Source: Halomicroarcula saliterrae (GTDB lineage: Archaea > Halobacteriota > Halobacteria > Halobacteriales > Haloarculaceae). Taken from it: 64,000 bases of DNA. The stretch is from NCBI RefSeq assembly GCF_031624395.1, contig NZ_JAMQON010000003.1, forward strand, positions 248,001 through 312,000, written 5' to 3'. The notes under the pieces were generated by a model. The model was not told where the DNA came from. It did no database searches and saw only the letters and a program-made list of their open reading frames with translations. How positions within the stretch are numbered: the stretch's first letter is position 1; each line of letters opens with the position of its first letter. This document shows positions 9,801 to 56,508 of this stretch, piece after piece. The translations under genes were made by a program, and so were the position numbers.

Positions 9801-10086
9801 TATCGGCTCTATCGTCCGCTGACCTGAACGTGTCCGTGACCGTCTGGCGACCGCACCGAATCTGCCCGCGAAGAACATAGACTCACTGGTATATATTTTC
9901 ACAATCGATTATCCGATTCAAACTAGATAACTGCCGGCAAATTATATACTTCTAGCAAATAGCTCTGTAAGTTCCATACCTTGCTAACAATGGCGGCAAA
10001 AATACTATATACCTGTAAATACATTAATGGCCTATCGAATAATGTCAACTCAGTTTAGTACATCGGGGGGCCGGGTATAGGCCTGT
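9801..10086. other. A+T-rich intergenic region
   Basis: After about 80 bp of ordinary sequence, 9885-10060 is markedly A+T-rich with several TATA-like motifs: TATATATTTT near 9892, AATTATATAC near 9941 and ACTATATACC near 10004. Two imperfect copies of a GGCAAA-N-TATATAC-N-TAAATA pattern suggest duplicated promoter elements for the gene at 10087. No ORF or RNA is convincing. Confidence 0.4.
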
Positions 10087-10779: not shown

Positions 10780-10913
10780 GGCGGTCCCGCTGCGAGACCT
10801 GCGTCGGCTGCCGGTACCGCAGCGCTTCCGTTCGTGTGTCACGACTCGTCGACAAATCCGCCGTCGGCCACTCGGTGGGGAATTAAGTCGGCTCACGTCC
10901 AGTATTCCACTGT

Positions 10914-12206: not shown

Positions 12207-12263
12207 TCGCTGTCTGCTGGCTGTTCAGCGACATCGATTAGCTGTGCAGATATCGAAGTCAAC

Positions 12264-12314
12264 AATCACCAAGATTTATACTGATAGGAACAATCAGAAC
12301 AAATAATGGTGATT
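12264..12314 (+). promoter_or_regulatory. Promoter and operator of the first AbrB/PIN module
   Basis: GATTTATACTG (about 12273-12283) is a TATA element. It sits between the arms of an exact 8-bp inverted repeat, AATCACCA (12264-12271) and TGGTGATT (12307-12314). The right arm ends 2 nt before the antitoxin start codon and also resembles a Shine-Dalgarno GGTGA. This fits negative autoregulation by the encoded AbrB-type protein. Confidence 0.55.
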
Positions 12315-12316
12315 CA

Positions 12317-12577
12317 ATGAGTTCGACTGAAGACTCCGGTGAGGAGTACGGTAATGCAGAAATCAACGACCGAGGGAGGCTGACTATCCCCAAGAAACTC
12401 CGCGACGAGATGCACCTTGACGCCGGGACTACGTTCACAGTCGTCCGAGATGGGACCGATATTAGACTCGTGCGTGAGCTCCCTGAACTCCGGACGCTGT
12501 CATCCGGCAAATCGGATGAGGACTGGGGGCCGGAGACGTTCCGTGACGCAGGCGAAGGGACGTTCGGTGGGCGATAG
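12317..12577 (+). CDS. AbrB/SpoVT-type antitoxin (VapB-like)
   Basis: This 86-aa protein has a swapped-hairpin AbrB fold at residues 14-55 (INDRGRLTIPKKLRDEM then LDAGTTFTVV). The acidic, flexible C-terminus (60-86) is typical of an antitoxin tail that wraps its toxin. The stop codon is immediately followed by the ATG of a PIN-domain gene. By family knowledge, the pair forms a VapBC-like module in which this protein binds both its own promoter and the PIN RNase. The inverted repeat around its TATA box is the likely operator. Confidence 0.8.
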   Translation: MSSTEDSGEEYGNAEINDRGRLTIPKKLRDEMHLDAGTTFTVVRDGTDIRLVRELPELRTLSSGKSDEDWGPETFRDAGEGTFGGR

Positions 12578-13030
12578 ATGCGCGTACTCCCGGATCTCAA
12601 CGCTCTGTCGATACAACTGGTCGATGACCATCCTGGCCATCACTACATCGCTGAGGAACTCGTGCCGACACTTCAGGGCGACCGGACGCTCCTTATGTTC
12701 GGATACTTACCGCTACGCGTACAGTGGGTGTTGGAGGACATGGGGTTCGACACCGTCGACGCCAGAAATGCCGTCAGTTCACTACTCCAGTATCCCATGG
12801 AAACAGTCGATGTCGGTCCTGAAGTCGTCCTCGACGCCTACGAAATCAGCTCCCAGAAGGACCACGATGTCTACGACTGTTTTTACGTTTCGCTCGCCCG
12901 TCATGCCGAAGCCGACGTGTTGCTAACGACTGACACGGATTTCGAGCGGCTGTGTGCGGACGAACCCTTCGAGTACACTAATCCGGTTCCCGACGAGGTA
13001 CTCTCGCGGTTCCACTCCGTGTCGACCTAA
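12578..13030 (+). CDS. PIN-domain ribonuclease toxin (VapC-like)
   Basis: This 150-aa PIN-domain protein shows the spaced acidic residues of the fold. Asp6 is in VLPDLNAL, the central helix acidic residues are in KDHDVYDCFYVSLA (about 97-110), and Asp pairs are in LLTTDTDFERL (about 119-129). Family members are Mg-dependent RNases, often cutting tRNA or rRNA. It starts at the base after the antitoxin stop, so the two are translationally coupled. The N-terminal LPDLNAL departs slightly from the usual hydrophobic-hh-D-T/S-N. Activity is likely but the target is unknown. Confidence 0.78.
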   Translation: MRVLPDLNALSIQLVDDHPGHHYIAEELVPTLQGDRTLLMFGYLPLRVQWVLEDMGFDTVDARNAVSSLLQYPMETVDVGPEVVLDAYEISSQKDHDVYDCFYVSLARHAEADVLLTTDTDFERLCADEPFEYTNPVPDEVLSRFHSVST

Positions 13031-40235: not shown

Positions 40236-43200
40236 TCAGGACTGTCGGTACCAGACGCCGACGGCAGCGATGAGCGCCAGCACGATGACCACGGCGGCGA
40301 TGCTGGTGCGGCTCAACCCGGCCGCCTCCGCCTCGTCGGTCGGCGTTCCGGTTGCGGTGGCCGCGGGCCGGTCGGTCGTCGGCTGCTCCGCGGTGGTCGT
40401 CGCCGCTCGCACGGTTAGCTCGCCGGCCGACTCGCCGCCGACGGCGAGGGCGTACGTCCCGGCCGTTTCGAAGGCAGGGGTGACCGTCACCGTCCGTTCT
40501 TCGCCGGCGGGCACGTCGACGGACTGGCTCGCGACGACCGAGCCGTCCGCGGTGAGTTCGAGCGCGTACGTCCCGTTCGCGTCGCCGCGGTTGGCGACGG
40601 TGGCGGTCACGTCGGTCGACTGTCCGGGCTCGATAGCCGCGTCGCCGACGCTCGCTTCGGTCACCTCGAAGGCGGGCCCGGCCGTCCCGACGGCGAACAC
40701 GGAGAGCCCCGGCGAGACGCTCCGGAAGTGGTAGTGCGTGTCGGTTTCGTCGACCAGCGTCGTCGGGAGAGCGGTCCAGCCGTCGCTCTCTTGCCGGTAC
40801 AGCGTGACCGACTCGGTGTCGGTCGCGGTGTCCAGTGCGCGCTCGTGCACCCGGAAGCGGACCGTCGCGTCGTCGACCTTCTCGTCGGCGATGCTGTGCT
40901 CGACGGTGATAGTTCCGACCGACCGGGCGCCGGTGGTCGCCGCGAACGCCGGGGCGCGCTCGCTTCCGTCCTCAGTGACGAAATCGAGCCAGAAGTAGTC
41001 GACCTGGCTGTGGTTCAGCCGGATAGCCGCGACTGTGAGGTTCCGGCGGTCGGCCGCCGTCTCGGCGCCGAGCGTGGCGGCGACGGGCCTGGTCGGTCGC
41101 GCGCCCGTCACGGTGACACGCCACCCCTCGCCCGTCCGGCGGACGTCGACTTCGGTCTCGACGTTGGAGGACGACCCGTCGACGGAGCCCCCCGACGGCG
41201 GCGAGGCGACGCGCACGGTCCGCGTGTCGTTCGCCTCGTTGCCCGCGGGGTCGGTCACGGTCAGGGTGACGGTGTACGTTCCGGCCGAGTCGTAGCTGTG
41301 GTTGGCCTGTTCGCCCGACACGCGCGTTCCGTCGCCGAAGTCCCACTCGTAGGCCGTGATATCGTCGTTGTCCGTCGACGCGCTGGCGTCGAACGCCACC
41401 GACTCGCCCGGCTCGACAGTCAGCGTCTCGTTCCCGCCCGCGTCGGCGGTCGGCGCGGTGTCGTCGACGGGTTCGACCGGCACCGCCGCCGTCGCCGTCC
41501 GGTCCGGCGTCAGGACCGTCACGCGATCACCGGTGACGTCGCTCGCCACGGTCTGCCACGCCAAGGTGACTGTCACCGACTCGCCCGGTTCGAGCGTCAC
41601 CGGGACGAACGTTCGCTCCCCGTCGACGACCCACACCGACTGGGTGTCCGCCGTCGCACCCGCGTTCGTGACGGTCGCCTCGACGCTGGCGGTCTCCCCG
41701 ACCGTCACCGAGTTCGGCGTATCGGTGATGGCCACGTCGAACGTCGGCTGGTGTGACAGGTGGGGATAGCGATTCGTCGTGTCCCACGTCCCGGCGAAGT
41801 CGAGGGCGGTCATGTTCGGCTCGGCGGCCGCGCCCGTCATCTGTGCGGTAGTACGCGCCTGTGGTGTCAGCGCTGGCGGCACCTCGCCCCGGCCAACACC
41901 GACCGTCTGGTCGGTCGTCTCGTTGTTCCAGTAGACACCGTCCGTTCGGACCGCGAACCCGGTCACCTCCCCGATCGCGCCGCCGACGTCGTTCCCGTCG
42001 GCGGCCGAGCCGCCGTCGACGTGGCCGACAGAGAACGAGTCGGTGACGGCGCTGCTGGCGAGTCCGACCAGCCCGCCCACGTTGTCGGTGCCGGTGACGT
42101 TCCCGCGGGCCGAGGCGTTCGCGAGAGTCTGATTGTTCCAGCCGACCAGCCCGCCCGTGTTCTGCGCACCGACGACGGTCCCCGCCGCGGTCGAGCGCTC
42201 GATGCTCCCGGCGTAACGGACCGAAAACAGCGTCTGTTCGGTGTTGTTGCCCACGAGCCCGCCGGTGTTCGTGTCTCCGTCGACGTCGCCGGTGGCCGTC
42301 GCGTTCGCGATGGCTCCGATGCTCATCCCGGCCAGTCCCCCGGTGTCAGTCCCGCCGGAGACGTCGCCCGTCGCCCACGAATCGGCGACGACGCCGCCGT
42401 CTTCCGACCCGCCGAGCTTGCCGACGAGCCCACCGACGCGACTGGTCCCCGTCACGGCCCCGCTCGCGTTCGAGTCGACCAGGTCGCCGCTGTTGCGCCC
42501 GACCAGGCCACCGACGATGTCGGTGCCGTTGACCGCCCCGCTGGCCCACGAATCGGTCACGTCGGAGAACTCGTTGTAGTTGTTTCCGAGCAGGCCACCG
42601 ACCTCCGACGAGCCGTCGACGGTCCCCGTCGCCCACGAGCGAGACACGTCCGCGTCGCTAAACCCGGCCAGCCCACCGACGTAGTCGGTGCCGGTGACGT
42701 CGCCGGTCGCCGCTGAGTCGTCGATATCGCCGTAGTTCAGGCCGACCAGCCCACCGACGTCGATGCCGCCGGTCACCGTGACGTCTACTGTGGCGTTCGA
42801 GACGCCGATGAACGAGTAGCCGACGAGACCGCCGACGTAGTCGGTGCCCTCGACCCGACCACTCACCGTCACGTCGTCTATCGTCCCGCTGCCGTCACCG
42901 ACGAGGCCACCGACGTCGTCGGCTCCTTCGACCGAGACGGACGCCAGCGTGACGTTCCCGACCGTCGAACCGGTGGTCTCGCCGAACAGCCCGACGTTGG
43001 ACTCCGTCGGTCGGTCGATGGTGAGGGCCGTAATCGCGTAGTTCCGCCCGTCGAAACTCCCCTCGAACTGGTCGGTACTGTTCCCGACCGGGTCGAAGCC
43101 CAGACCGCCGTTCCACGTCGCCGTCGCGCTGGCGTCGACGTCGTTGCCGAGCGCGTAGTGGGCCGTGAGGTTCTCGGCCATCGCCTGCAGCTGTGTCGCG

Positions 43201-43367
43201 TTCGTAATGACGAAGGGGTCTTCCGCGGTCCCGTCGCCGCTCATCCCGGCCGGCCCGTTGCCCGCCGCGGCGGCGGTGCCGACCAGCCCCGGCGCAACCG
43301 CGACCACCGACCCCAGCAGGATTACTGACAGCACGACTGCCCGAACCCGCTGGCGCGGGCCGGTCAT
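40236..43367 (-). CDS. Giant surface protein with GLUG repeats, CARDB, PKD and PGF-pre-PGF
   Basis: This 1043-aa exported protein has a Sec signal peptide (about 1-34). A beta-helix of GLUG repeats (about 40-530) follows, with many VGGLVG turns and a start cap [18 protein letters not shown]. Then come a CARDB/APHP-like domain (about 560-650), a PKD domain (about 655-740, [14 protein letters not shown]), a PGF-pre-PGF domain (about 770-910) and a second CARDB-like domain. The C-terminus is one membrane helix ([19 protein letters not shown]), which lacks a recognisable PGF tripeptide. Probable role: adhesion or S-layer-associated structure. The N-terminal half is a close paralogue of the next gene. 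It shares a promoter design with the other two giant genes. Confidence 0.88.
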
Positions 43368-43500
43368 CGAACCCCGCCGTTGCCGGCACTGGCGCCCCTC
43401 CGCTCGTCCCGACCCGCTGTCGGAACACTGTCACCGTCGTACAGCCGCGAATCGGCCGCTGCAACCACGCTATGCATACATCAACGTCATAAATTCCGAG

Positions 43501-43540
43501 TTTATAGCCACCGATTGGACAACAGTTCAGCGTCGAAACG
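43501..43540 (-). promoter_or_regulatory. Promoter of the 1043-aa surface protein with degenerate palindrome
   Basis: On the minus strand CGTTTCGACGCTGAACTG (43523-43540) is followed after exactly 16 nt by TATAAA (43501-43506). The stretch just before the TATA element, CGGTGGC, is identical in the 2035-aa gene promoter and CGGTGGG in the 1810-aa gene. The palindrome is imperfect here: the left half is intact, the right half is altered. Confidence 0.55.
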
Positions 43541-43612
43541 ATGGGTCACCAGCCGACAGTACGGTGGCAGTTCGCACTGGCAACGGCGGTGCGGTCGCCG
43601 GCTTCGAGGCCG

Positions 43613-46600
43613 TTACCGCTGGCCGCGGGCCCGGAGCGCGACGAGCGCGACCGCCAGCAGCGCCGCGAGGACGCCCATTCCGGGGCCGCTCCCGTCGGTC
43701 GTCGCGGTCGGGGTCCTCGGCGTCGGGCTGTCCGTCCCAACCCGTTCGGTCGGTGTCGAAGTTTCGACCGCTGTCTCGGGGTCCGTGGGTTGGACTATGT
43801 CTCCGCCGACAGTGAACACCGAGAGACCCGGCGAGATGGCCTCGAAGGCGTAGCTCTCGTTGCTCTCGGCGACGAGCGCGGTCGGCAGCCGCGTCCAGTT
43901 CGTCCCGGTCTGGCGGTACAGCGCAACCGTCGCCGGGTCGACGCCTGCCGCGTCCACTCGGAACGCGACCGTCACGTTCTCGACATCGCTGTCGGCGATA
44001 GCGTGGCCGAGAGTCAGCGTGCCGAGGGGCGCTGTGCCGGTCTGTGCGGTGAAGTTCTCGGCGCTCGCGTCGCTCGCGGTGACGTTGAGGCTGAAGTTCC
44101 CGTCGCGGCTGACGTTCAGCCGGAGGCCGGTGACGCTCGCGTCGCTCCGCTCGTCGAGCGCGACATCGATTGGCGTGTCCGCCCGCGCGTTTACCACGGC
44201 GACTGTCCAGCTCGCCTCGGTGCCGTTCACCGACTCGACGGTGACGGTCGTCACACCCTCGTCGGTCGCTGGACCGCCCGCGGTGTCGCCCGAGGAGCCG
44301 CCGGAACTACCGCCCGAGGAGCCGCCGGAGTCACCGGAGTCGTCCGAACTAGACGAGTCATCGCTGCCGGCGGAGTCGTCTGCGTCCTCGGAATCGTCGC
44401 TACCGGCGGAGTCGTCTGCGTCCTCGGAATCGTCGCTACCGGCGGAGTCGTCTGCGTCCTCGGAATCGTCGCTACCGGCGGAGTCGTCTGCGTCCTCGGA
44501 ATCGTCGCTACCGGCGGAGTCGTCGCGAATCTCCACGCGCAAGGTGTCGGCCGCCGCGTTTCCGCTCGTGTCGGTGACGGTCAGCGTCGCGGTGTAGGTC
44601 CCGGACGTCCCGTAGGCGTAGGAGACGTTCTCACCGGTCGCGTTCGCCCCGTCGCCGAAGGTCCACTCGTAGGAACTGATCTCGACGCCGTCCGACGAGT
44701 CGCTCGCACTGAACGAGAGCGTGTCGCCTTCGTCCCCGTCGCTGGGGCCGCTCGCGACCGCGTTCGGGGCGGTCCCGTCGACAACCGAGACGGTTCGGCT
44801 CGTACTCGTGTTCTCGCTCGCGACGGTCACGAGGCCGCTGCCGACGTCTCCGTTCCCGGTCCGCCACGTGAGCGAGACACTGCTCGACGCGCCCGGCGCG
44901 AGTGTCACGTCGACCGAATCCCGCTCGATGGTGTCGGTGAGCGTCACCGCCTGCGTCGCCGCGATGCCACCGGTGTTGGTGACAGTCGCGGTGACGGTCA
45001 GGTTGTCGCCGGCGGTCACGGGCGTGTTCGTGGCCGCGCCGGTCACGTCGAAGAACGCCGGCGCGAGGAACTCGACGGTCGGCTCGTCGGCGAGCGTCAC
45101 GCCGTCGGCGACGACAGAGACGGTGACCGTCTCGGCCACATCGTTCGTGACGGCAAACTCGTAGACACCGCCGCTGGTCTCGCTGACGCCGGTCGCCGCG
45201 GTGGCGTCCCCGCCGACCGAGAGCCCGAAGTCGTCCGCGACGAGACCGGTGACCGGACTGCCGGTGGTGTCGACGACGGTCGCCGTCACCTTTGCGGGGT
45301 CGCTACCGTCGGCGACGTGTGGCGAGGTCGCGCTGACGGTCGAGGCGTCCGCGTCGACCGACGGCTCCCGGACGGTCACCGACTCGGTGGTCGTCGTGTT
45401 CGCGCTCGCGACGGTCACGAGGCCGGTCCCGACATCGCCGGTGTCGGTCGCCCAGACGAGCGTGACCAGCCGTGACTCGTCGGGGGTGAGTGTCAGCGTG
45501 ACGTTGTCCGCCTCGCCGCCGCTATCGGTCAGCGTCACCGTTTGCGTGCCCGCGGTGTCACCTGCGTTGTGCACGTTGGCGACGACGGTGAGCGCCTCGC
45601 CCGCGTCGACGGGTGTGTTCGTGTCCGCGATGGCCACCTCGAAGTACGGCCGCCCCGACTCGACGAACTCGATTTCGGGCTGGTCGGCGAGCGTCACGCC
45701 GTCGGCCGTGACGGTGACAGTCACCGACTCGGTGACGGCGTCCGTCACGGTGACTGTGTAGACACCCGTGTTGACCTCGCTGGTGACGCCGGCGACGGCG
45801 GACCCGCCGACAGCGACGGCGAACGCGTTCGCCGTGAGTCCCGTGACCGTGTCGCCGCCGGAGTCGACGAGGACGACGGCCACCGTCGAAGCGTCGCTGC
45901 CGTCGGCGACCCGTGGGGATTCGACCGCGACTGACGAGGCTGCGGCGTCGATAGTCGCCACGCCGCTGGTCGTCACCCGAGCCGACCTGAGTTCTGGCGG
46001 GCCGGACTCGATAGGCGCCCACGTCTGCTCGAAGTCGAGCGCCGCCATCGCGTAGCGGGTCGAGAGGCCGCGGAACTGCGCCGCTTCGAGCGCCGTGACG
46101 CCGCTTCCGGTGCTCGCGTCGCCACAGCGACCCGCGTAACAGTACGACGCCGTTATCGTCCCGTTGTTCAGGCCGGCGACCCCGCTGACGCTGGTCTCGC
46201 CGGTGGCGTTCCCGGTCGCCCACGCCGTCGTGACGTCGCCGGGGTTCAGCCCGACGAGACCGCCGACGTAGTCGGTGCCCGAGACCTCGCCGCCGGCCGA
46301 GGCGTTCGCGACGCTCTGCTCGTTCCAGCCGACGAGGCCGCCGACTGTTCGGGCCCCGTAGACGTCGCCCGTCGCGGTCGAGCGCGCAACGGTGAACTGT
46401 CTGTTGCTGGTCCCGACGACGGTGTTGCCGACGAGGCCGCCGACGTCGGTGTCGCCCCGAACCGTCCCGGTGGCCGTCGACTCCGTGACGTTCCCTCGGA
46501 CCAGCACGCCGACGAGGCCGCCGACGCCGTCGGTCCCGTAGACGTCGCCGCTCGCGGACGCGTTCCGCACGTCGCCACCGAACCTGGACCCGGCAAGCCC

Positions 46601-49045
46601 GCCGACCGAGTCGGTTCCAGTGACGGTTCCACTGGCGGACGCGTCGGTTAGCTCGCCGCCACCGTCGCCGACCAGGCCGCCGACGTCTCTCCTCCCGTCG
46701 ACATCACCGCTAGCCCACGAGTCGCGCACCGGGTCTCTGGCGTTGCCGGCCAGTCCGCCGACACCGTCGGTCCCGTTGACGTCGCCGGTCGCCCAGGATT
46801 CGGACACCGGGCCGATACTGACCCCGACGAGGCCGCCGACGTCGCTGGTGCCGTCGACGTCGCCACTCGCCCACGAGGTCGTTATCTCGCCGCCGGGATT
46901 GAACTGGCCGACCAAACCGCCGACGGTTCCGCCGCCCTCGACGACCGCACTCGACGACGAGTCGGTGAGTGTCGCACCGTTCAGCCTGCCGACGGCGCCA
47001 CCGACGCTGGTGCCACCTGTCAGCCGCCCGCTGGCGGAGACGTTCGAGAGCCCGCCGTTGTCCGCCCGCCCGACCAGCGCACCGACGGTTCCGTCGCCAG
47101 CTATCGAGACGTTCGCCAGCGTGACGTTCCGGATATCACTCCCCAGGGCGAAGCCGAATAGCCCCACGTCGTCCTCGTCCGGCCGGTCGATGGTTAGGTT
47201 CGAGATACTGTGACCCTGGCCGTCGAAGCTTCCGGTGAACTTGGTCGAAAAGCTCCCGACCGGCTCGAAGCCCTTGTCACTGTTCCACTCAGACGTGTTC
47301 GTGGCGTCGATGTCGTTCCCGAGGAGGTAGTTCGCACCGAGACTCTCGTTTATCGCCTGCAACTGCGTCAGGTTCGTGACGACGTAGGGATAGGCGTCGC
47401 TCCCGGTGCCGACCATCCCGGCGGGACCGTTGGCTCCCAGGTCGACCTGGACTGTCGCCGTCGTCTCCCGGTCCAGCGTCCGCACCGTCACGGAATCGCC
47501 ATCGACATCGCTCTCTCGGGTCTGCCAGTCGAGGGCGACAGTGGTCGACTCGCCGGCGTCGAGCACCAGCGGGACGAACGTTTGGTCGTCGTCAACGAGC
47601 CACACGGGCTGTGTGTCGGCTCTCGTCCCCGCGTTGGTGACGGTCGCGGTGACGGTCGCGGTGTCACCGACCGTCACCGAGTTCGGTGCGTCGGTGACGG
47701 CCACGTCGAAGGTCGGCTCCCACGCGAGCTTTGGGTAGCGGTTCGTCGAGACCCACTCGGCAGGGAAGACGAGCCCGCTCATGTTGCTCGTCGCGGCGTC
47801 ACCCGTCATCTGTGCGGTCGTCAGTGCCACGGTGGTAACGCCCGCCACGTCGCTGGCGCCGACGCCGGCGGCCTGGTCGGTCGTGTCGCCGTTCCAGTAG
47901 ACGTCGGCCGTGGCGTCCGCACCCGTGGTGACGTTCCCGATGGCGCCGCCGACGGCGGACTGCCCGTCGACGTGCCCGACCGAGTACACGTCGACGACTG
48001 TACTGCCGTGCATGCCGACGAGCCCACCGACGGCGTCCGTCCCGGTGACGTTCCCGCGGGCCGCGGAGCGAGTGATTTCGAGTGTCCCGAGGACCCTGCC
48101 GACGAGGCCGCCGACGGCGCTCGTCCCCGAGACGTGCCCCGTCGCGAACGAACCGGTTACGCTGCCTTGCCCGGCCAGGCCGCCGACGTAGGTATCGCCG
48201 GTGACTGCCCCAGTCGCAAACGAATCAGAGGCGGAGTCGACCCGGCCGGCCAACCCGCCGACGTAGTCCACGCCGGTGACCGCCCCAGTCGCCCACGAGT
48301 CGGAGACGGCGCCGCCTCGTCCGACGAGACCCCCGGTGAAGCTGGTGCCGGTAACGTCGCCGCGAGCCCACGAGTCCGAGACCGTCCCCGTGCTGTACCC
48401 GACTAGCCCACCCACTCGCTCCGACCCGTCCACCGTCGCCGTCGTCGTCGAGTTGGTCACTGCCCCGTCGAGTGAACCCGCTACCCCACCGACGTAACTA
48501 AACTCGGACGTACTGCTCACGGAGCCGCTCACCGAGACGTTCGACAGTCCTCCCGGCGCGGAGCTGGTCTCTATCTCGCCGACGACACCCCCGACGCGCT
48601 GTTGACCCGTTATCGAGACGTTCGAGAGTGTGACGTCCCGGATATCGGCACTCTCGGCGTAGCCGAACAGACCGATCCAGTTCCGCCCGGGTCGGTCGAT
48701 GGTCAGGTTCGTGATGGTGTGGCCCCGCCCGTCGAAACTGCCGGTGAACCTGGTCGAAAAGCTCCCGACCGGCTCGAAGCCCGCCCCGCCGTTCCGGGTC
48801 GCGCTCGCGTCGATATCCGCGACGAGCGCGTAGTTCGCCCCGGGCTCCTGTTGCATCGCCTGCAACTGCGTGAGATTCGCGACCTGGTAGGGGTCCTCGG
48901 CGGTTCCGTCGCCGTACATTCCCGCCGGACCGTTGCCCGCCGCGGCGGCGGCCGTGCCGACCAGTCCGGGCGCGAGTGCGACCACCGACCCCAGAAGGAG
49001 CACTGACAGCACGACGGCCCGAAGGCGGTCTTCTGTCCCGGTCAT
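43613..49045 (-). CDS. Giant surface protein: two GLUG modules, Big-like, PKD, PGF-pre-PGF, PGF-CTERM
   Basis: This protein of about 1810 aa starts at ATG 49045 just before a signal peptide nearly identical to that of the 1043-aa protein. GLUG beta-helix module 1 (about 40-440) and a CARDB linker (about 440-555) lead to GLUG module 2 (about 560-1000), which restarts NGPAGMVGTGSDAYPYVVTN, an internal duplication. Two Big_1/CARDB pairs (about 1005-1430), a PKD domain (about 1440-1525), an acidic 12-residue repeat DSAGSDDSEDAD and a PGF-pre-PGF domain (about 1610-1760) follow. The tail GPGMGVLAALLAVALVALRA then RGQR is a PGF-CTERM variant, expected to be cut and lipid-anchored by archaeosortase A. 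Likely an adhesive or S-layer-attached protein. Confidence 0.9.
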   Translation of the reverse strand: MTGTEDRLRAVVLSVLLLGSVVALAPGLVGTAAAAAGNGPAGMYGDGTAEDPYQVANLTQLQAMQQEPGANYALVADIDASATRNGGAGFEPVGSFSTRFTGSFDGRGHTITNLTIDRPGRNWIGLFGYAESADIRDVTLSNVSITGQQRVGGVVGEIETSSAPGGLSNVSVSGSVSSTSEFSYVGGVAGSLDGAVTNSTTTATVDGSERVGGLVGYSTGTVSDSWARGDVTGTSFTGGLVGRGGAVSDSWATGAVTGVDYVGGLAGRVDSASDSFATGAVTGDTYVGGLAGQGSVTGSFATGHVSGTSAVGGLVGRVLGTLEITRSAARGNVTGTDAVGGLVGMHGSTVVDVYSVGHVDGQSAVGGAIGNVTTGADATADVYWNGDTTDQAAGVGASDVAGVTTVALTTAQMTGDAATSNMSGLVFPAEWVSTNRYPKLAWEPTFDVAVTDAPNSVTVGDTATVTATVTNAGTRADTQPVWLVDDDQTFVPLVLDAGESTTVALDWQTRESDVDGDSVTVRTLDRETTATVQVDLGANGPAGMVGTGSDAYPYVVTNLTQLQAINESLGANYLLGNDIDATNTSEWNSDKGFEPVGSFSTKFTGSFDGQGHSISNLTIDRPDEDDVGLFGFALGSDIRNVTLANVSIAGDGTVGALVGRADNGGLSNVSASGRLTGGTSVGGAVGRLNGATLTDSSSSAVVEGGGTVGGLVGQFNPGGEITTSWASGDVDGTSDVGGLVGVSIGPVSESWATGDVNGTDGVGGLAGNARDPVRDSWASGDVDGRRDVGGLVGDGGGELTDASASGTVTGTDSVGGLAGSRFGGDVRNASASGDVYGTDGVGGLVGVLVRGNVTESTATGTVRGDTDVGGLVGNTVVGTSNRQFTVARSTATGDVYGARTVGGLVGWNEQSVANASAGGEVSGTDYVGGLVGLNPGDVTTAWATGNATGETSVSGVAGLNNGTITASYCYAGRCGDASTGSGVTALEAAQFRGLSTRYAMAALDFEQTWAPIESGPPELRSARVTTSGVATIDAAASSVAVESPRVADGSDASTVAVVLVDSGGDTVTGLTANAFAVAVGGSAVAGVTSEVNTGVYTVTVTDAVTESVTVTVTADGVTLADQPEIEFVESGRPYFEVAIADTNTPVDAGEALTVVANVHNAGDTAGTQTVTLTDSGGEADNVTLTLTPDESRLVTLVWATDTGDVGTGLVTVASANTTTTESVTVREPSVDADASTVSATSPHVADGSDPAKVTATVVDTTGSPVTGLVADDFGLSVGGDATAATGVSETSGGVYEFAVTNDVAETVTVSVVADGVTLADEPTVEFLAPAFFDVTGAATNTPVTAGDNLTVTATVTNTGGIAATQAVTLTDTIERDSVDVTLAPGASSSVSLTWRTGNGDVGSGLVTVASENTSTSRTVSVVDGTAPNAVASGPSDGDEGDTLSFSASDSSDGVEISSYEWTFGDGANATGENVSYAYGTSGTYTATLTVTDTSGNAAADTLRVEIRDDSAGSDDSEDADDSAGSDDSEDADDSAGSDDSEDADDSAGSDDSEDADDSAGSDDSSSSDDSGDSGGSSGGSSGGSSGDTAGGPATDEGVTTVTVESVNGTEASWTVAVVNARADTPIDVALDERSDASVTGLRLNVSRDGNFSLNVTASDASAENFTAQTGTAPLGTLTLGHAIADSDVENVTVAFRVDAAGVDPATVALYRQTGTNWTRLPTALVAESNESYAFEAISPGLSVFTVGGDIVQPTDPETAVETSTPTERVGTDSPTPRTPTATTDGSGPGMGVLAALLAVALVALRARGQR
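44367..44525 (-). repeat. 36-bp tandem repeat in coding sequence
   Basis: Four exact 36-bp units (44367-44402, 44403-44438, 44439-44474, 44475-44510) and a partial fifth encode DSAGSDDSEDAD on the minus strand. The units are identical at synonymous sites except near the edges. This shows recent expansion, and in-frame length change would alter the stalk before the PGF-pre-PGF domain. Confidence 0.85.
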
Positions 49046-49184
49046 CGCGACCCGCCGCCGCGGATACACCCCGCCCGTTCGCTTCCGGTGGACCGACCTA
49101 TGGGTTCGACGCTCGCCTTCCCGACTCCCCTCGACCGACCACAACTACCTGGAGTGCTCATGCCCGAGGGTCGCTAATTTCGGC

Positions 49185-49224
49185 TAAATACCCACCGTAT
49201 ATACAGTGTTTCACCGCTGAAACA
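49185..49224 (-). promoter_or_regulatory. Promoter and palindromic operator of the 1810-aa surface protein
   Basis: TGTTTCA-CCGC-TGAAACA (49207-49224) is a perfect 7+7 inverted repeat. On the minus strand it is followed 16 nt later by TATTTA (49185-49190), with CGGTGGG just before the TATA element. The layout is identical to the promoter at 56370-56409. It lies about 70 bp from the start of the divergent regulator, so it could also affect that gene. Confidence 0.7.
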
Positions 49225-49251
49225 TCGTTCAGCGGCGGATAGGCCGCCCCG

Positions 49252-49279
49252 GTCACGACTGAAGAATTATAGTCGTGAC
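49252..49279 (+). promoter_or_regulatory. TATA element flanked by a 9-bp inverted repeat
   Basis: GTCACGACT (49252-49260) and AGTCGTGAC (49271-49279) are exact inverted copies enclosing GAAGAATTAT, whose A+T core is centred about 27 nt before the ATG at 49295. This is a likely autoregulatory operator over the promoter of the regulator gene. Confidence 0.65.
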
Positions 49280-49294
49280 TCCCGATATCCTCGC

Positions 49295-50062
49295 ATGGAC
49301 ACGTCCGGACTCGAACGGGATATCCGCCTGCTGCAACGGGCGCCGGTTCTGGCTGCCTGTCGCGACGGCCCCGTGGACCGCTCGACTATCGCCGAGCGGG
49401 CGGACTGTTCCCGGACGACCGTCTACCGGGCGACGACGGAACTCGAAGCCGACGGCCTGCTCGAACAGGGCTCCGGGGGGTACTCGCTGACGACCTTCGG
49501 GACGACGATACTGGACCGCATCACACAGTTCCGGGCCGAAATCGACGGTATCAGGCATCTCGTGCCGCTTTTGGGGCGAATCGACGCGTCCGAACTGCGC
49601 GAGAACGTCGACCTGTTTGCCGACGCGACCGTCGTCGAGGCCAGTCCGGACGCACCCTACGCCATCGACCAGCACTTCGCGTCCGTCATCGGCGCCAACA
49701 CGGACGAGTGGTTCGGGTTCACGCAGGCGTACGGCTCTCCGATAGTCGTCGAGGCCGTCTCCGAGGCCATCGCCGCCGGCGCGAGTGCCGAGTGGGTGTT
49801 CACGAGGGAGACGGTCGAGCGCCTCTCCGAGCAGTACCCGGAGGCACAGACCGAACTTCGGGCGCTCGACCGAACTGCCTCCTACGTCGTCGATAGCCTC
49901 CCCTTCGATTTCGCCGTCCTCAACGACACGCTCGTTCTCATCGGCGCTGACACCGAGACCGGCGTCCACGCGGCCATCGCGACGACCGACGACCCCGACG
50001 CCGTCGCGTGGGCGCGTGACCTCTTCGAGACGTATCGGGACCGGGCCGAGCGGGTGGCCTGA
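49295..50062 (+). CDS. Winged-helix regulator with FilR1-like sensor domain
   Basis: This 255-aa regulator has an N-terminal winged helix (about 10-75): LLQRAPVLAACRDGPVDRST, then IAERADCSRTTVYRATTELE. The C-terminal domain (about 120-250) resembles FilR1/DUF1724 (FADATVVEASPDAPYAIDQH, AVLNDTLVLIGADTETGVHA). That group of archaeal regulators includes FilR1 of Methanothrix/Methanosaeta, linked to filament formation. It is the only rightward gene inside the three giant-surface-gene block and sits between two of them. It is therefore the best candidate for controlling their shared operators, by context only. The start is leaderless. Confidence 0.85.
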   Translation: MDTSGLERDIRLLQRAPVLAACRDGPVDRSTIAERADCSRTTVYRATTELEADGLLEQGSGGYSLTTFGTTILDRITQFRAEIDGIRHLVPLLGRIDASELRENVDLFADATVVEASPDAPYAIDQHFASVIGANTDEWFGFTQAYGSPIVVEAVSEAIAAGASAEWVFTRETVERLSEQYPEAQTELRALDRTASYVVDSLPFDFAVLNDTLVLIGADTETGVHAAIATTDDPDAVAWARDLFETYRDRAERVA

Positions 50063-50071
50063 GCGGCCGAG

Positions 50072-53000
50072 TCACCGCTCGCGGCGCCGTCGGAGACCGA
50101 CGGCGAGACTGACCGCAAGCAGCGCCGCGACGACGCCCATACCCGGCCCGCTGGCGCCGGTCGCCGTTTCCGTGGGCGTGACGGTCGCCGGTTCGGGCGT
50201 CGGGCCGGTCGCCGACCGTGCCCTGACGCTCACGGTCCCGACTGACTGCCCGTCGACGGCCAGCGCGTAGGTGCCCGCCGTCTCGAACGTCGACGAGAGC
50301 GTCACGGTTCGGTTCGTCCCGGCGGCCACGTCGACGGAGTCGGTGGCGACGGCGCTGCCGTCGGCGGTGAGTTCCAGCGGATAGGTCCGCTCGACCGTGC
50401 CACGGTTGGTGAGCGTCACGTCGACAGCCGCCGGCTGGCCGGTGTCGACCGTCGCGGTCCGGCGGGTCGCCTCGGTCACCGTTACCATCGACGCGTTCGT
50501 CCCGACGGTAAAGACCGAGAGGCCGGGTGCGGTCGCCCGGAAGACGTAGTGCGTGTCGGTCTCGCCGACGACGGTCGTCGGCAGACGGTTCCAGCGCGTG
50601 GTCTCGTCGCGGTACAGCGACACTGACGACGGTCCGATGCGGTTCTCGCGGAGGTAGGACTTTCGCAGCCGGAAGGTGAAGGCCACCTCGCCGATGTCGG
50701 CGTCGTCGATGGAGTGTGTGACCGTCACCCGACCCATCGGTGTCGACCCGGTCGAGGCGGCGAACTCGCGGTCCCTGTCGGACGGCGCCGAGACGCCGCT
50801 TTCGGGCTCTTCCGCGGCCGGCCCACCGGCTCGAATCTCGCTCGTCGAGACGGACAACCCGAAGTCGCCGTCGCGCTCGACCGTCAGCTCGATACTCGGC
50901 ACGTCGACGTTGCGCTGGTCACCGCCGGTATCGGAGTCGCCACCGGCCAGCGGAATCTGCACGGGTTCGCCCCGCTTCGCGTCCGAAACGGAGACCTCGG
51001 CGGTAGCGCTGTCGTCCGACTCGTCCACGGTGACCGACGTGCCGGAGCTACTGCCACCACCGCCGCCGCCGTCACGGACCGGGAGTACCGTGATATTGAC
51101 GACGGCTCTGTCGGTGTTGCCGTCGGTATCCCGCAGCTCGTAGACGAAGGCGTCGTCGCCGTTGTAGTTCCGGTCGGGGCGGTACTCGAAGGAGCCGTTG
51201 GCAGCCAGCGTGAGCCGCCCGTCCGACGTGTTGGTCACGACCGAGACAGTGAGGTCGCCGTCGTCGGCGTCGGTGTCGTTCGCGACGACCCCGAGGTCGG
51301 CGTCGACGGCGAGCGTGTTGTCCTCCAGAACGGTGTACGCGTCGTCGACCGCGTCGGGGACCGTGTTGGTAACCGACAGGTCGGTCACCCCGGCGACGCG
51401 GTTCCCGCCGGCGTCCTCGGGGACCTTGCGTCCGGGTGCGTAGCGCAGAGTGACGTCGTCTTCGGCCGCGATACTGTCGGCGAGTGTCAGGCTGAGATTC
51501 CGCCCGTCGACCGCGACGTCGGTCACGGCGACGGCCCGGCCGCCCGCCGTGACGGCGAAGTCCCCGCCGTCCGGTACGTCCCCCGAGTCGGTCGAGAGCG
51601 TCTCGTCGGTGCGAAGCGTGAGTGTTCGCTGGCCGGTCCGTGCGCCCGTCACTGCCGGTGGGCGCGTGTCGACGGTGATGTTGAACCGTTCCACGCCGCT
51701 CGTGTCGGTCCCTTCGTTCGCGGTGCCGCCGTCGTCTCGCACCCGCACGGCGACGGTGGCGGTCCCCTCGACGCCGTCGTCGACGGCGTAGGTCAGCGTG
51801 CCGTTGTCGTCGCCGTCGGTGTCTGTAACGGCGACACTGTCGAGGATGCCCGCGGGGTCGCGCTCGACCGAGACGACGAACGCCCGGACGCCTTGGCCGG
51901 CCTCGTCGGACCCGCCGCCGGGCGAGAAGCCGGTGGCGAAGTCGGGGACCGTCCGCTCGCTCGTGTCGTTGGTCACGGTCCGGTTCGCACCGAGGTCGAT
52001 GCTCGGTGCGTCGTTGACGGCCTCGACGGTGAGTGTGACCGTCGCCTGCGCCGTCGCCCCGTTGCCGTCGGCTATCTCGTAGGTGAACGTCTCCTCGCCG
52101 GTGCGGTTCGCTGCGGGGACGTACTCGACGGAGCCGTTCGCGGCGAGCGTCAGCGCGCCGTTCGCCGGGCTGGAGACCAGCGCCACCGTCAGCGCGTCGC
52201 CGTCGACGTCGCCGTCACCGTCGAGCACGCCGGGTGCGGCCACCGACAGCGCGGTGTCTTCGGCTGTCGTGTAGCTGTCCGCGTCCGCAGTCGGCGCGTC
52301 GTTGGTGTTGGTCACGTCGATGCCGAACGGGCCGACCGTGTCGGTCGCGCCGCCGCCGTCTTCGACGGTTATCTCGATGCCGTCGGCCGTGCCCACGTCA
52401 TCGTTGGTCGGCGTCCCCGATAGCTCGCCGGTCGCGGTGTCGAAGGTTGCCCACGAGGGCTGGTTCACTATCGTGAACGTCGTCGTATCGCCCGCGTCCG
52501 CGTCACTGACAGCCGGTGTGTAGCTGTAGACCGAATCCTCCGCGACCGTCGCGCTGGGTGTGTTGTCGATGGACGGCGGGTCGTTGGTGTTGGTCACGTC
52601 GATGCCGAACGGCCCGAGCGTGGCCGTCTCGCCGGCGGTGTCCGTCGCGGTAATCTCGATACCGCCGTACGCACCCACGTCGTCGTTGGTCGGCGTCCCG
52701 GCTATCTCACCGGTGGCCGTGTCGAACGTGGCCCACGGGGGCCTGTTTGTAATGGTGAACGTCACCGCGTCGCCCGCGTCGACGTCGACTGCCGTCGGCG
52801 TGAACGAGTAGACGCTATCCTCGGGGGCGTCGGGTGCCGTCCCGCCTATCGTCGGTGGGTCGTTAGTGTTGGCCACGTCGATGCCGAACGGGCCGACCGT
52901 GTCGGTCGCGCCGTCGCCGTCCTCGACGGTTATCCCGATGCCGTCGTAGCTACCCACGTCGTCGTTGGTCGGCGTCCCCGACAGCTCGCCGGTCGCGGTG

Positions 53001-56000
53001 TCGAAAGTTGCCCACGAGGGCTGGTTCACTATCGAGAACGCCGTCGTGTCGCCTGCGTCCACGTCGGTGACGGCCGGTGTGTAGCTGTAGGGCGAATCTT
53101 CGGTGACCGTCGCGTCGGGCGCGTTGTCGATAGACGGCGGGTCGTTGACCGGCGCGACGGTCAGCGTGAACGATTCGGTCCCCGAGAGCCCGCCGTCGTC
53201 GGCTTCGAGGGTAATCGTGGCCGTCCCCGTGGCGTTCGGCGCGAGCGTGACGTCGAGCGTCCGGTCGGTGCCGGTGCCACTGACCGCCAGATTGGCGTCC
53301 GGCACCAGCGACTGGTCGCCCGAACTCGCGCCGACGGTCAGCGACCCCGGCGCCGTCTCGACGTCGTCGACTTGGAAACTGACGGGGGCGACGTCGCTGT
53401 CCTCGTCGACGGTCAGGTCGCTCACCGCGGTTATCGTCGGCCGGTCGTCGACCGGGTCCACCGTCAGGCGGAACTCTTCCCGGGCGGTCAGCGAGCCGTC
53501 GCTGACCTCGACGGTGACGAGGGTGCTCCCGGACTGGTCCGCCGCCGGGACGATATCGAGCGTGCGGTCGGTCCCGCTCCCGCCGAAGGCGTGTGACTCG
53601 ACGAGCGACGGTGTGTCGGCGCTAAAGGAGAGCGTGAGGCTCCCCGCGGCCGTCTCGGCGTCACCGACGGTGAACGCGACGCCGCTCAACGGCTGGTCTT
53701 CGTCGGTCGCCTGGTCGGCGATGGCACCGATAGTCGGCGCGTCGGCCACGGGCTGGACGTCCAGCGAGACGGTCGCACTGTCGGTCTCGCTGTTTCCGTC
53801 GCCGGTCAGCCCGGGGTCCGTGCCGGTGTTGCCCTCGTCGGAGACAGTCGCGGTCACGGTGTCGGTCCCGAAGTAGTCGGTGTCGCTCCGGTAGGAGAGC
53901 GTCCCGAGCGCGGCGTTCACGTCCGACTTCGGCCCGCTGACGGTGAGCGAACTCGCGCCGTTGCTCCCGCTGACGACGGCGAGCCCCGTCGTCGAGCCGA
54001 CGGTGAGCGTGCCGTGCTGGGCGGTGAGCGTCAGCCTCATGAGCCCGCCACCGTCGTCGGGATCTGCCACCTGTATCTCGTTCGCGCCGGTCAGGTCGAA
54101 CGCGACGTCCTCGTCGGGCTGGAGCGTCCCGCCCGGGGCCGTTATCGAGGGGGCGTCGTTGCCGGGCTGGACGGTCACGGTCGCCGTCGCACTCGCAGTC
54201 GCCCCGGCGTCGTCGGTCGCCGTGACGGTCACCGCGCGGTCGGTGGCGTCGGGCGCGTCGTCGTCGTTCTGAAAGCGCACCGCCTCGACGGCGGCTTCGA
54301 GGTCAGCCGTGCTGGCCGTGTTGCGCGTGACGGTAATCTCGTTCGTGCTGGCCGAGAACCCGAGGTCGGCGGCGAGGCCGCTCGTGTCGACTGCCAGCCC
54401 TTCACCCGCGTCGCCCTGTGGGTTGTCGAGTGTCACCGTGACCGACTCGACGGTCCCGTCGCTGTCGGCCAGATCGACTGGCCCGGTGACGGCCACGCCG
54501 TCGCCGCTCGCGGTCCCCTGGTCGTCGTTCTCGCTGAACGTGACCGACGAAGCGGTACCGTCCGCGCCCGTATCGAGGTCGGCCGAGGGCGAGACGTTGC
54601 TCTGGTCGACCACGATGTTGTCGATAGCGACCTGGTCGCTCACGCCGGTGGTAAACCGAACCTCGTCGACACGCCGGAACTCGGAGTCGTCCCCGTCGGG
54701 GTCTCTGGTCTGATAGCCGCTGCTCGCGGCCATCGTGTAGGTCTGACTCGCCACCCGCGTCCCGTCACGGTAGCCGTAGACCGTCACGTCCTGTCCGGAA
54801 TCACCGTAGTTGTCGATATCGAGGGAGTCCAGCGCGAACGGCTCGTCGCTCTCGAAGCGGGTGCCCGTCGTCGCCGGGTCCCGCGTGGCCTGTTCTAACT
54901 GGAGCTCGTTCGACGCCACCAGGCTATTCTCCGCGGCATCTCCGAACTGGTAGCCGTAGAACAGCAGTTCCCGCACGTTTCGCGCGTCGACCGAATCACC
55001 GTTTCCCAGTTCCGGGCCGAGGCTGGTGAAATCGAGCGTCGTACTCGTCGAAATCGGTTCGAGTGCCGGGTCGAAGATGACGGACTGGGACTCGCTGGTC
55101 TGGAGCGCGCCGTCCGGGTCGCCGTCGTCGAAGCTGAGCGTGAGGCCGTACTCGACGACAACCGGGTCGCCGATGTTCTCGTAGGTGATGGCCTGTAACA
55201 CGTCGTCGACCAGTGCCGGCGTGGCCGCCGTCTCGGCGGCGGTGAAATCGATAGTCAGCGTGCCACCGCTCTGCGTGTAACTGGCGAAGGCGCTCCCGCC
55301 AGTTGTCAACTCCGACCCGGAGGTGGCGAAGGTTCCGGCGCTCGTATCGAACCCGTAGCTGTCGTCGGCGCTGGCACCGCCCTCACGGACGACGGTGAGC
55401 GTACTGCCCGCGTAATCGCCGGCCGCGTCGAGCTCTGTGTCGGCGACCGTCGCGTCGCTGTCGACGACCACCGGTGTCCCGCTCGCCTCGTCGTAAGTGA
55501 CCGTCGCATCGAGGTTCGAGAACGACGGCTGGGTGTTCGAGGAGACCGCCTGGTCGACGACGAAGTCGTCGACGGTCACACAGCTATTGGCATCGAAGCT
55601 GGATGTGTCGCTGTACCCCTCGAACCGGACTTCGTCGACGGATGCGAAGCCGATGACTCGCGTAGTCACCGGCTCGGTCGAGCTTATGGTGTAGCTCTGT
55701 GAGTCGACCTGTGTCCCGTCCTCGTAGCCCGCAACAGTGAACGATATCGGCGTTCCGCAGAACACCTCGGTGGTGAACGAGGAGAACTGGAAACTGTCCC
55801 CGTTCGGGTCGCTAATCGTCCCATCCGGAAGGGTCTCCCGGAGATTCAGCCCGATATCCGGCTGTTCAAGCGTATCCCACTGCCAGTTCTCGAACTCCAG
55901 TGTCGTCGAACTCCCGTCGGCTTCGAGCGACCCGGTACAGGTCGTCCCGCCGCTGGACGTGCGGGTCAACAGTTCCTGCGAGACGACACAGGGGTCCGAG

Positions 56001-56179
56001 TTCGGATATTTACTGTCGAAGGAAAAAGTTTCCTGGGTGGTGACTTGCATCGTCCCGCCCGAGACGACGGACTCGCTCGTCCCGACGGTCGCCGACCCGC
56101 TCGCCGGCACGACTGTGACACCTGAGAGGGCCACACAGACGACGACACCGATAAGTAGCAGCATCCGCCGATTCGCCAT
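50072..56179 (-). CDS. Giant cadherin-like surface protein with PGF-pre-PGF and PGF-CTERM
   Basis: This protein of about 2035 aa has a Sec signal peptide (about 1-28). An N-terminal unique beta region (about 30-560) contains two sugar-binding-like DUF642/PEP-type segments (GYEDGTQVDSQSYTI; YGYRDGTRVASQTYT). A long array of cadherin-like/VCBS domains follows (about 560-1560). It includes three near-identical dystroglycan-type units with the PSWATFDTATGELSGTPTND signature, and Big-like and tandem-95 units (AEDTALSVAAPGVLDGDG). Next are a PGF-pre-PGF domain, a CARDB-like domain and a tail GPGMGVVAALLAVSLAVGLR then RRRER, a PGF-CTERM variant. Acidic, Ca-binding-like DxD loops are frequent. Probable role: cell-cell or cell-surface adhesion. 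ATG 56179 is chosen because it directly precedes the signal peptide; 56191 and 56200 are alternatives. Confidence 0.88.
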   Translation of the reverse strand: MANRRMLLLIGVVVCVALSGVTVVPASGSATVGTSESVVSGGTMQVTTQETFSFDSKYPNSDPCVVSQELLTRTSSGGTTCTGSLEADGSSTTLEFENWQWDTLEQPDIGLNLRETLPDGTISDPNGDSFQFSSFTTEVFCGTPISFTVAGYEDGTQVDSQSYTISSTEPVTTRVIGFASVDEVRFEGYSDTSSFDANSCVTVDDFVVDQAVSSNTQPSFSNLDATVTYDEASGTPVVVDSDATVADTELDAAGDYAGSTLTVVREGGASADDSYGFDTSAGTFATSGSELTTGGSAFASYTQSGGTLTIDFTAAETAATPALVDDVLQAITYENIGDPVVVEYGLTLSFDDGDPDGALQTSESQSVIFDPALEPISTSTTLDFTSLGPELGNGDSVDARNVRELLFYGYQFGDAAENSLVASNELQLEQATRDPATTGTRFESDEPFALDSLDIDNYGDSGQDVTVYGYRDGTRVASQTYTMAASSGYQTRDPDGDDSEFRRVDEVRFTTGVSDQVAIDNIVVDQSNVSPSADLDTGADGTASSVTFSENDDQGTASGDGVAVTGPVDLADSDGTVESVTVTLDNPQGDAGEGLAVDTSGLAADLGFSASTNEITVTRNTASTADLEAAVEAVRFQNDDDAPDATDRAVTVTATDDAGATASATATVTVQPGNDAPSITAPGGTLQPDEDVAFDLTGANEIQVADPDDGGGLMRLTLTAQHGTLTVGSTTGLAVVSGSNGASSLTVSGPKSDVNAALGTLSYRSDTDYFGTDTVTATVSDEGNTGTDPGLTGDGNSETDSATVSLDVQPVADAPTIGAIADQATDEDQPLSGVAFTVGDAETAAGSLTLSFSADTPSLVESHAFGGSGTDRTLDIVPAADQSGSTLVTVEVSDGSLTAREEFRLTVDPVDDRPTITAVSDLTVDEDSDVAPVSFQVDDVETAPGSLTVGASSGDQSLVPDANLAVSGTGTDRTLDVTLAPNATGTATITLEADDGGLSGTESFTLTVAPVNDPPSIDNAPDATVTEDSPYSYTPAVTDVDAGDTTAFSIVNQPSWATFDTATGELSGTPTNDDVGSYDGIGITVEDGDGATDTVGPFGIDVANTNDPPTIGGTAPDAPEDSVYSFTPTAVDVDAGDAVTFTITNRPPWATFDTATGEIAGTPTNDDVGAYGGIEITATDTAGETATLGPFGIDVTNTNDPPSIDNTPSATVAEDSVYSYTPAVSDADAGDTTTFTIVNQPSWATFDTATGELSGTPTNDDVGTADGIEITVEDGGGATDTVGPFGIDVTNTNDAPTADADSYTTAEDTALSVAAPGVLDGDGDVDGDALTVALVSSPANGALTLAANGSVEYVPAANRTGEETFTYEIADGNGATAQATVTLTVEAVNDAPSIDLGANRTVTNDTSERTVPDFATGFSPGGGSDEAGQGVRAFVVSVERDPAGILDSVAVTDTDGDDNGTLTYAVDDGVEGTATVAVRVRDDGGTANEGTDTSGVERFNITVDTRPPAVTGARTGQRTLTLRTDETLSTDSGDVPDGGDFAVTAGGRAVAVTDVAVDGRNLSLTLADSIAAEDDVTLRYAPGRKVPEDAGGNRVAGVTDLSVTNTVPDAVDDAYTVLEDNTLAVDADLGVVANDTDADDGDLTVSVVTNTSDGRLTLAANGSFEYRPDRNYNGDDAFVYELRDTDGNTDRAVVNITVLPVRDGGGGGGSSSGTSVTVDESDDSATAEVSVSDAKRGEPVQIPLAGGDSDTGGDQRNVDVPSIELTVERDGDFGLSVSTSEIRAGGPAAEEPESGVSAPSDRDREFAASTGSTPMGRVTVTHSIDDADIGEVAFTFRLRKSYLRENRIGPSSVSLYRDETTRWNRLPTTVVGETDTHYVFRATAPGLSVFTVGTNASMVTVTEATRRTATVDTGQPAAVDVTLTNRGTVERTYPLELTADGSAVATDSVDVAAGTNRTVTLSSTFETAGTYALAVDGQSVGTVSVRARSATGPTPEPATVTPTETATGASGPGMGVVAALLAVSLAVGLRRRRER

Positions 56180-56508
56180 CGCCCCGTTCATCGGCCACAC
56201 GTGCCTGCCGGGCCCGTGGCAGACCGTCTGTCGGCCGCGGGCCGCACTCGTACACCGTCCTCCGGGGAGGGGTCTGCACCGCCAACGACTGTCACCGCAC
56301 CGGGCCCCTTCGCGCGCGTGTCAGAGGCTCTAAGGCCAGATTGCATGGCATCTCCTTCGGACAAATCGGTATATAGCCACCGATGAAACACTGTTTCACG
56401 CGTGAAACACGGTTACGTCGCTCCCGGCCAATCGAGGTTATAAAACCCGGCGAACTGCGGCAGGCGGGCCAGGGGGACACGCAACCTTCAGCGATCATGC
56501 AGTCGAGC
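56180..56508. other. Long leader and promoter of the 2035-aa gene
   Basis: No gene is seen in this 329-bp region. A transcript from the TATA element at 56370 would have a leader of about 160 nt before ATG 56179, unusually long for this genome, where most genes here look leaderless. 56410-56508 is the gap before the truncated hydrolase. Confidence 0.4.
56370..56409 (-). promoter_or_regulatory. Promoter and palindromic operator of the 2035-aa surface protein
   Basis: TGTTTCACGCGTGAAACA (56392-56409) is a perfect 18-bp palindrome. On the minus strand it is followed after 16 nt by TATATA (56370-56375), with CGGTGGC before it. A third half-site (TGTTTCA, minus strand) lies in the 16-nt spacer. 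The same architecture is found before the other two giant genes. Confidence 0.72.

Follow-up and report, generated by a model that had tools for sequence, protein, structure and literature searches.

A half-site array at the promoters of three giant surface genes and a candidate FilR1-type regulator in Halomicroarcula saliterrae

Giant surface genes and their promoter array

The window, which designates here the whole 64,000-nt stretch of DNA analysed, lies on the 508-kb contig C3 of the Halomicroarcula saliterrae genome and carries three giant surface genes on the minus strand. The largest (50072..56191) encodes a protein of 2039 aa, counted from a coupled ATG, with cadherin/Big_9/He_PIG repeats, PGF-pre-PGF and PGF-CTERM; the second (43613..49045, 1810 aa from its coupled ATG) has GLUG, invasin-like Ig, CARDB, PKD and PGF-pre-PGF domains, and the third (40236..43367, 1043 aa) has GLUG, PKD, CARDB and PGF-pre-PGF. 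The lengths of 1043 and 1810 aa given in the preliminary description were retained, while its 2035 aa for the largest protein becomes 2039 aa when the overlap with a leader ORF sets the start. TIGR04213 (PGF-pre-PGF) scored above its cut-off in all three proteins and TIGR04126 (PGF-CTERM) only in the 2039-aa one (25.5 versus 24.5); a similar GPGMG tail, judged by eye, was noted in the 1810-aa protein. These features are consistent with archaeosortase-anchored surface proteins, and the role in surface remodelling proposed earlier comes solely from such domain content (GLUG, PKD, PGF-pre-PGF, PGF-CTERM).

An 18-bp element had been placed upstream of each gene, at 56392-56409, 49207-49224 and 43523-43540, and was found there in every case, with a spacing to the TATA element of exactly 16 nt at all three promoters on the minus strand: TGTTTCACGCGTGAAACA-16-TATATA for the 2039-aa gene, TGTTTCAGCGGTGAAACA-16-TATTTA for the 1810-aa gene and CGTTTCGACGCTGAACTG-16-TATAAA for the 1043-aa gene. 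The palindrome as the repeated unit had to be given up, as promoter alignment with relatives revealed three alternating half-sites (H1-H2-H3), GTYTCA-N4/5-TGAAAC-N3-GTYTCA-N8/9-TATA. The 18-mer comprises H1 and H2 with a further base on either side, the third half-site having been missed.

At the 2039-aa gene, the operator (56384..56408, minus strand) consists of H1 GTTTCA (56408-56403), N4, H2 TGAAAC (56398-56393), N3 and H3 GTTTCA (56389-56384), followed on the same strand by the pre-TATA/BRE block TCGGTGGC and TATATA (56370..56383). The minus-strand operator of the 1810-aa gene (49199..49232) has an extra half-site CTGAAC (49232-49227) before H1 GTTTCA (49223-49218), H2 TGAAAC (49213-49208) and a degenerate H3 GTATAT (49204-49199), with the pre-TATA block ACGGTGGG and TATTTA at 49185..49198 (minus strand). 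That of the 1043-aa gene (43515..43539, minus strand) is degenerate, with H1 GTTTCG, H2 TGAACT and H3 GTCCAA in an unchanged register, and precedes TCGGTGGC and TATAAA (43501..43514, minus strand). Between the end of the array and the TATA there are 8-9 nt, and both TATA and start site are left uncovered.

With 5 of 14 mismatches to TGTTTCA-N4-TGAAACA, the site at 43523-43540 is insufficient on that pattern alone, and searches of the own genome with three mismatches recovered only the two exact sites, missing the degenerate ones; a matrix was therefore used, trained on ten sites, all outside the window. The three promoters ranked first to third in the 64 kb, with scores of 33.4 for the 2039-aa gene, 19.9 for the 1043-aa gene and 18.4 for the 1810-aa gene, as compared with 7.2 for the next-best site in the window and 12.9 for the best among eight shuffled windows. 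Since a matrix devoid of window sites ranks it second, the degenerate 43k site is regarded as real.

The similarity of the three upstream regions could also reflect the shared ancestry of duplicated DNA with no present regulatory function, in line with the paralogy of two giant genes, starts included, and with the decay of the 43k site. Half-sites and spacing are, on the other hand, conserved across genera while the intervening and surrounding bases differ, and the strongest operator is that of the gene for the 2039-aa protein, whose domain family differs from that of the two GLUG proteins, a combination that points to shared regulation more than to duplication alone. Ancestry without function is held to be quite improbable.

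Leader ORFs overlapping the giant genes

Ahead of each giant gene lies a minus-strand leader ORF that the preliminary description did not include, of 52 codons at the 2039-aa gene (56188..56346), 39 codons at the 1810-aa gene (49042..49161) and 37 codons at the 1043-aa gene (43364..43477). In all three cases the leader ATG lies exactly 29 nt past the start of the TATA, i.e. in the leaderless position, and the leader TGA overlaps the ATG of the giant gene on the same strand (ATGA). A coupled leader starting at TATA+29 to +32 was found at 12 of 14 operator or sister promoters of GLUG genes. Those outside the window (C3:338 kb, C3:37 kb, H. pelagica, G143, three Haloferax species, G366 and G421) have 22-41 codons and an ATGA, GTGA or TGATG overlap. 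Two exceptions, the giant gene of G224, which is itself leaderless, and the leader of G062, which is fused in frame, indicate that the leader ORF is not a constant feature. Among GLUG genes lacking the operator, about 20 were examined and none showed a leaderless coupled ATG ORF, and the chance of the arrangement, estimated with shuffled leaders, is 0.004-0.03 per locus.

As GC-rich DNA often contains open frames, the leaders could be untranslated and their overlaps fortuitous, and the poor conservation of the peptide (between two Haloferax species, 8 changes alter an amino acid and 4 are silent) goes in this direction. The recurrence of the start position and of the exact stop-start overlap, as well as the missing arrangement at control GLUG genes, speaks against it, and untranslated leaders are considered unlikely. 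Because the leader peptides are poorly conserved in sequence, it is probably the act of translating the leader rather than the peptide that matters, and a function of the peptide itself is not favoured.

The overlaps also fix start codons of giant genes that annotation misses, and the leader ORFs make it possible to examine, in a natural setting, how haloarchaea begin to translate very long surface proteins behind long 5' leaders. On plasmid NZ_CP126162.1 of Haloarcula pelagica (G021; L166, position 5535), the annotated GLUG start is located 30 nt downstream of a GTG that overlaps the leader stop, and the leader ORF is left out of the annotation.

Distribution of the array and the FilR1-domain regulator

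TGTTTCA-N4-TGAAACA has exactly two copies in the 4.2-Mb genome, both of them inside the window (reversed control, 0), and five places were found with up to two mismatches versus two in the control. Within the family (146 genomes) the exact motif was found in only two others, apparently carrying the same contig; the only other exact copy in the family (L042, G039:C1, around 9980) has a distant FilR1-like gene some 470 nt away. The bases shared before the TATA (CGGTGGC or CGGTGGG) were confirmed and are rare, CGGTGGSTATW being present six times in the genome, of which four at FilR1-linked giant genes (the three of the window and C3:338924), with 10 in the reversed control. The matrix scan of the own genome covered about 512 kb, where the only other site scoring above 16 was C3:37883, which adjoins another FilR1-GLUG pair and belongs to the training set. 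As far as scanned, the motif is absent from unrelated promoters, so that the refuting condition set in the preliminary description, a motif frequent at such promoters, did not hold. These sequence comparisons support a dedicated regulon for giant surface genes, as had been proposed, and a very small one.

A pattern made of the inner half-sites and the TATA, TGAAACNNNGTYTCA-N1-12-TATA, had matches in 14 of 392 genomes of the order (reversed control, 0). Most of these matches belong to an extended module with GLUG genes, FilR1 genes or both alongside. Matches in G155, G271, G303, G044 and G384, where FilR1 or GLUG genes were not found nearby, were taken as chance. In GTDB genome contigs a strict pattern gave eight matches, four haloarchaeal and four bacterial, the bacterial ones being likewise taken as chance, and the matrix also detected a site in G224 on which it had not been trained, beside FilR1 and GLUG genes. 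The module is also present in Haloarcula, Haloferax gibbonsii, marisrubri and prahovense, family f7 and the window's own family; H. prahovense and H. marisrubri have it in a simple form, with a single regulator and a single gene. Spacings are N5/N9 in the arrays of relatives and N4/N8 in those of the window and of Halobacteria archaeon HArc-gm2.

At GLUG loci without FilR1 (n=11) the operator was not found at the gene, with the exception of Haloferax gibbonsii. In this species (L076, 9850-10400) the operator, leader ORF and GLUG gene are kept without the divergent FilR1 gene seen in its relatives, which retain both operator and regulator gene. Conversely, in G091 and G062 the operator persists divergent to the regulator though the GLUG gene no longer follows. 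In G091 (L043, contig C1), one operator is situated upstream of a tryptophan-halogenase-like flavoprotein gene (10827-12587), itself downstream of the FilR1 gene, and a second one, at 9894 and divergent to the regulator, has a 21-codon leader followed by a short remnant frame.

The sister locus C3:338072 has the regulator, the leader ORF and CGGTGGG-TATA, and half-sites were not recognisable in that register. There (L085, 1-10096), the FilR1 gene and a 3004-aa GLUG gene are divergently oriented; the latter has a coupled leader ORF of 41 codons but no TGAAAC half-sites, and a different palindrome, CTGTTCGTCGATGAACAG (one mismatch), is found upstream.

The regulator gene inside the block (49295..50062, plus strand) is divergent from the 1810-aa gene. 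Its previous designation as a FilR1-like winged-helix regulator was borne out by domain matches above curated cut-offs, namely FilR1_middle (PF08350; 82.4 bits versus 27) and an HVO_A0261-type N-terminal winged helix (HVO_A0261_N; 75.3 bits versus 35). FilR1_middle ends at residue 250 of 255 and no REC domain was matched; the TrmB domain (PF01978) was not among its Pfam matches at E 0.001, and a sequence search of solved structures gave no match. The predicted model (pLDDT 88.9) had its best PDB matches with TrmBL2 (5bpd, E 4.6e-12) and then TrmB (3qph), at about 12% identity and a whole-chain TM-score of about 0.45, PLD-fold proteins matching better locally. The predicted fold, nearest to TrmBL2/TrmB, would combine a winged helix with a PLD-like effector domain.

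FilR1-type regulators adjoin the operator in other genera too, and elsewhere in the own and other genomes such regulators also adjoin giant GLUG surface genes. The operator-linked FilR1 proteins form one tree group (11 rows, one change, 0 of 500 shuffles as low) covering three families, united by a branch of modest support (62/71), with SRATAYR, SRATVYR or SRTTVYR in the recognition-helix region; the 49295 regulator shares only 32-39% identity with the others. The two HTH-10 regulators do flank the block as previously described, but were ruled out as conserved partners and as members of the module since homologues were not found at the other operator loci. On account of this absence, and because the operator-linked FilR1 proteins are one clade found beside the operator across genera, the 49295 FilR1-type regulator is the likely candidate binder of the arrays.

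The GvpE element likewise has TGAAAC-like halves next to the BRE. A GvpE-like protein or an HTH-10 regulator could bind the arrays, the FilR1 gene being a neighbour by chance, and the HTH-10 genes flanking the block as well as the H. gibbonsii operator persisting without a neighbouring FilR1 gene can be cited in its favour. HTH-10 genes are nonetheless absent at the other operator loci, and the operator and a single FilR1 clade co-vary across three families. A gas vesicle gene was not found in ten operator genomes either, a weak argument given that the control of this search was also silent. Binding by such another protein is deemed highly improbable.

A perfect 9-bp inverted repeat, GTCACGACT-N10-AGTCGTGAC (49252..49279), encloses the TATA box of the regulator gene itself, and none was seen at related regulators. 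FilR1-domain matches are present in 129 of 145 haloarchaeal genomes. No described binding site for any haloarchaeal FilR1-domain regulator was found in the literature, and a literature search for HVO_A0261 found nothing.

Proposed regulation and comparison with known systems

Taken together, the block probably represents, though with considerable room for doubt, a local regulon composed of a FilR1-type activator, a half-site array and a leaderless leader ORF with re-initiation. The 49295 regulator would bind the TGAAAC/GTYTCA half-sites directly upstream of the three BRE/TATA and, once bound, would most likely activate by aiding TFB/TBP binding when its signal is present. Transcription would start at the ATG of the short leader ORF, and ribosomes would translate this leaderless ORF and then re-initiate at the giant gene through the stop-start overlap. 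The 49295 protein as binder, activation and re-initiation are all inferred here from sequence. Points that weigh against this reading are the modest branch support and low identity of the 49295 regulator, the H. gibbonsii operator that has lost its neighbouring regulator, the G091 operator at a halogenase-like gene, the sister locus devoid of recognisable half-sites and the two deviating leaders of G224 and G062.

The same regulator and operator may instead act in repression, the protein blocking TFB/TBP beside the BRE until a signal releases it. Divergent regulator-target pairs are often local repressors, and with an array within 8-9 nt of the TATA the access of TFB could be hindered. The uncovered TATA and start site do not fit this well, nor does the position rule known for archaeal regulators: for the TrmB type, a site upstream of BRE/TATA usually leads to activation and a downstream one to repression (PMC4158304), the same holds for Tar (PMC6737238), and the site of the activator GvpE also adjoins the BRE (PMC4390858). 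Repression is therefore judged somewhat unlikely. As the array lies upstream of BRE/TATA, like the sites of archaeal activators, and the model is nearest to TrmBL2/TrmB, activation would be preferred. Regarding re-initiation, translational coupling has been established for genes with overlapping stop and start codons in Haloferax volcanii (PMC6728339), where uORFs in long 5' leaders have also been catalogued (PMC4983044).

More tentatively, and with less confidence than for the local regulon, the module may be a portable haloarchaeal cassette for giant adhesin-like proteins, in which an activator, a TATA-fixed array and a leader gating translation by obligatory re-initiation travel together. 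If so, a single compact upstream region would control transcription as well as translation of a surface coat, and this would be the first defined operator found for a haloarchaeal FilR1-domain regulator. The comparison yields a defined operator together with a clade-specific candidate regulator and a class of targets, all of which are testable in cassette-bearing Haloferax species.

Among known systems, TrmB, TrmBL1 and TrmBL2 resemble the 49295 protein by the winged helix and putative PLD-like domain of its predicted model and by a site upstream of BRE/TATA. The targets differ, being surface genes in the window as opposed to sugar metabolism, and the 49295 protein has no PF01978 match and the low identity and TM-score given above. 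FilR1 of Methanosaeta harundinacea shares the winged helix and PF08350 middle domain (PMC5847659); the window protein, with 255 aa and without a C-terminal REC domain, is therefore not a FilR1-type response regulator. The GvpE UAS is alike in its paired short sites adjoining the BRE with a fixed distance, at divergent promoters (PMC4390858), whereas GvpE is leucine-zipper-like with an 8-N4-8 element and the inverted array of the window comprises three half-sites and adjoins a FilR1 gene. Finally, the leaders recall the ATGA/TGATG overlaps of termination-reinitiation pairs (PMC6728339) and the short ORFs in long 5' leaders of Haloferax volcanii (PMC4983044), with the difference that here the upstream member is a leaderless ORF of 22-52 codons tied to one operator-controlled gene family.
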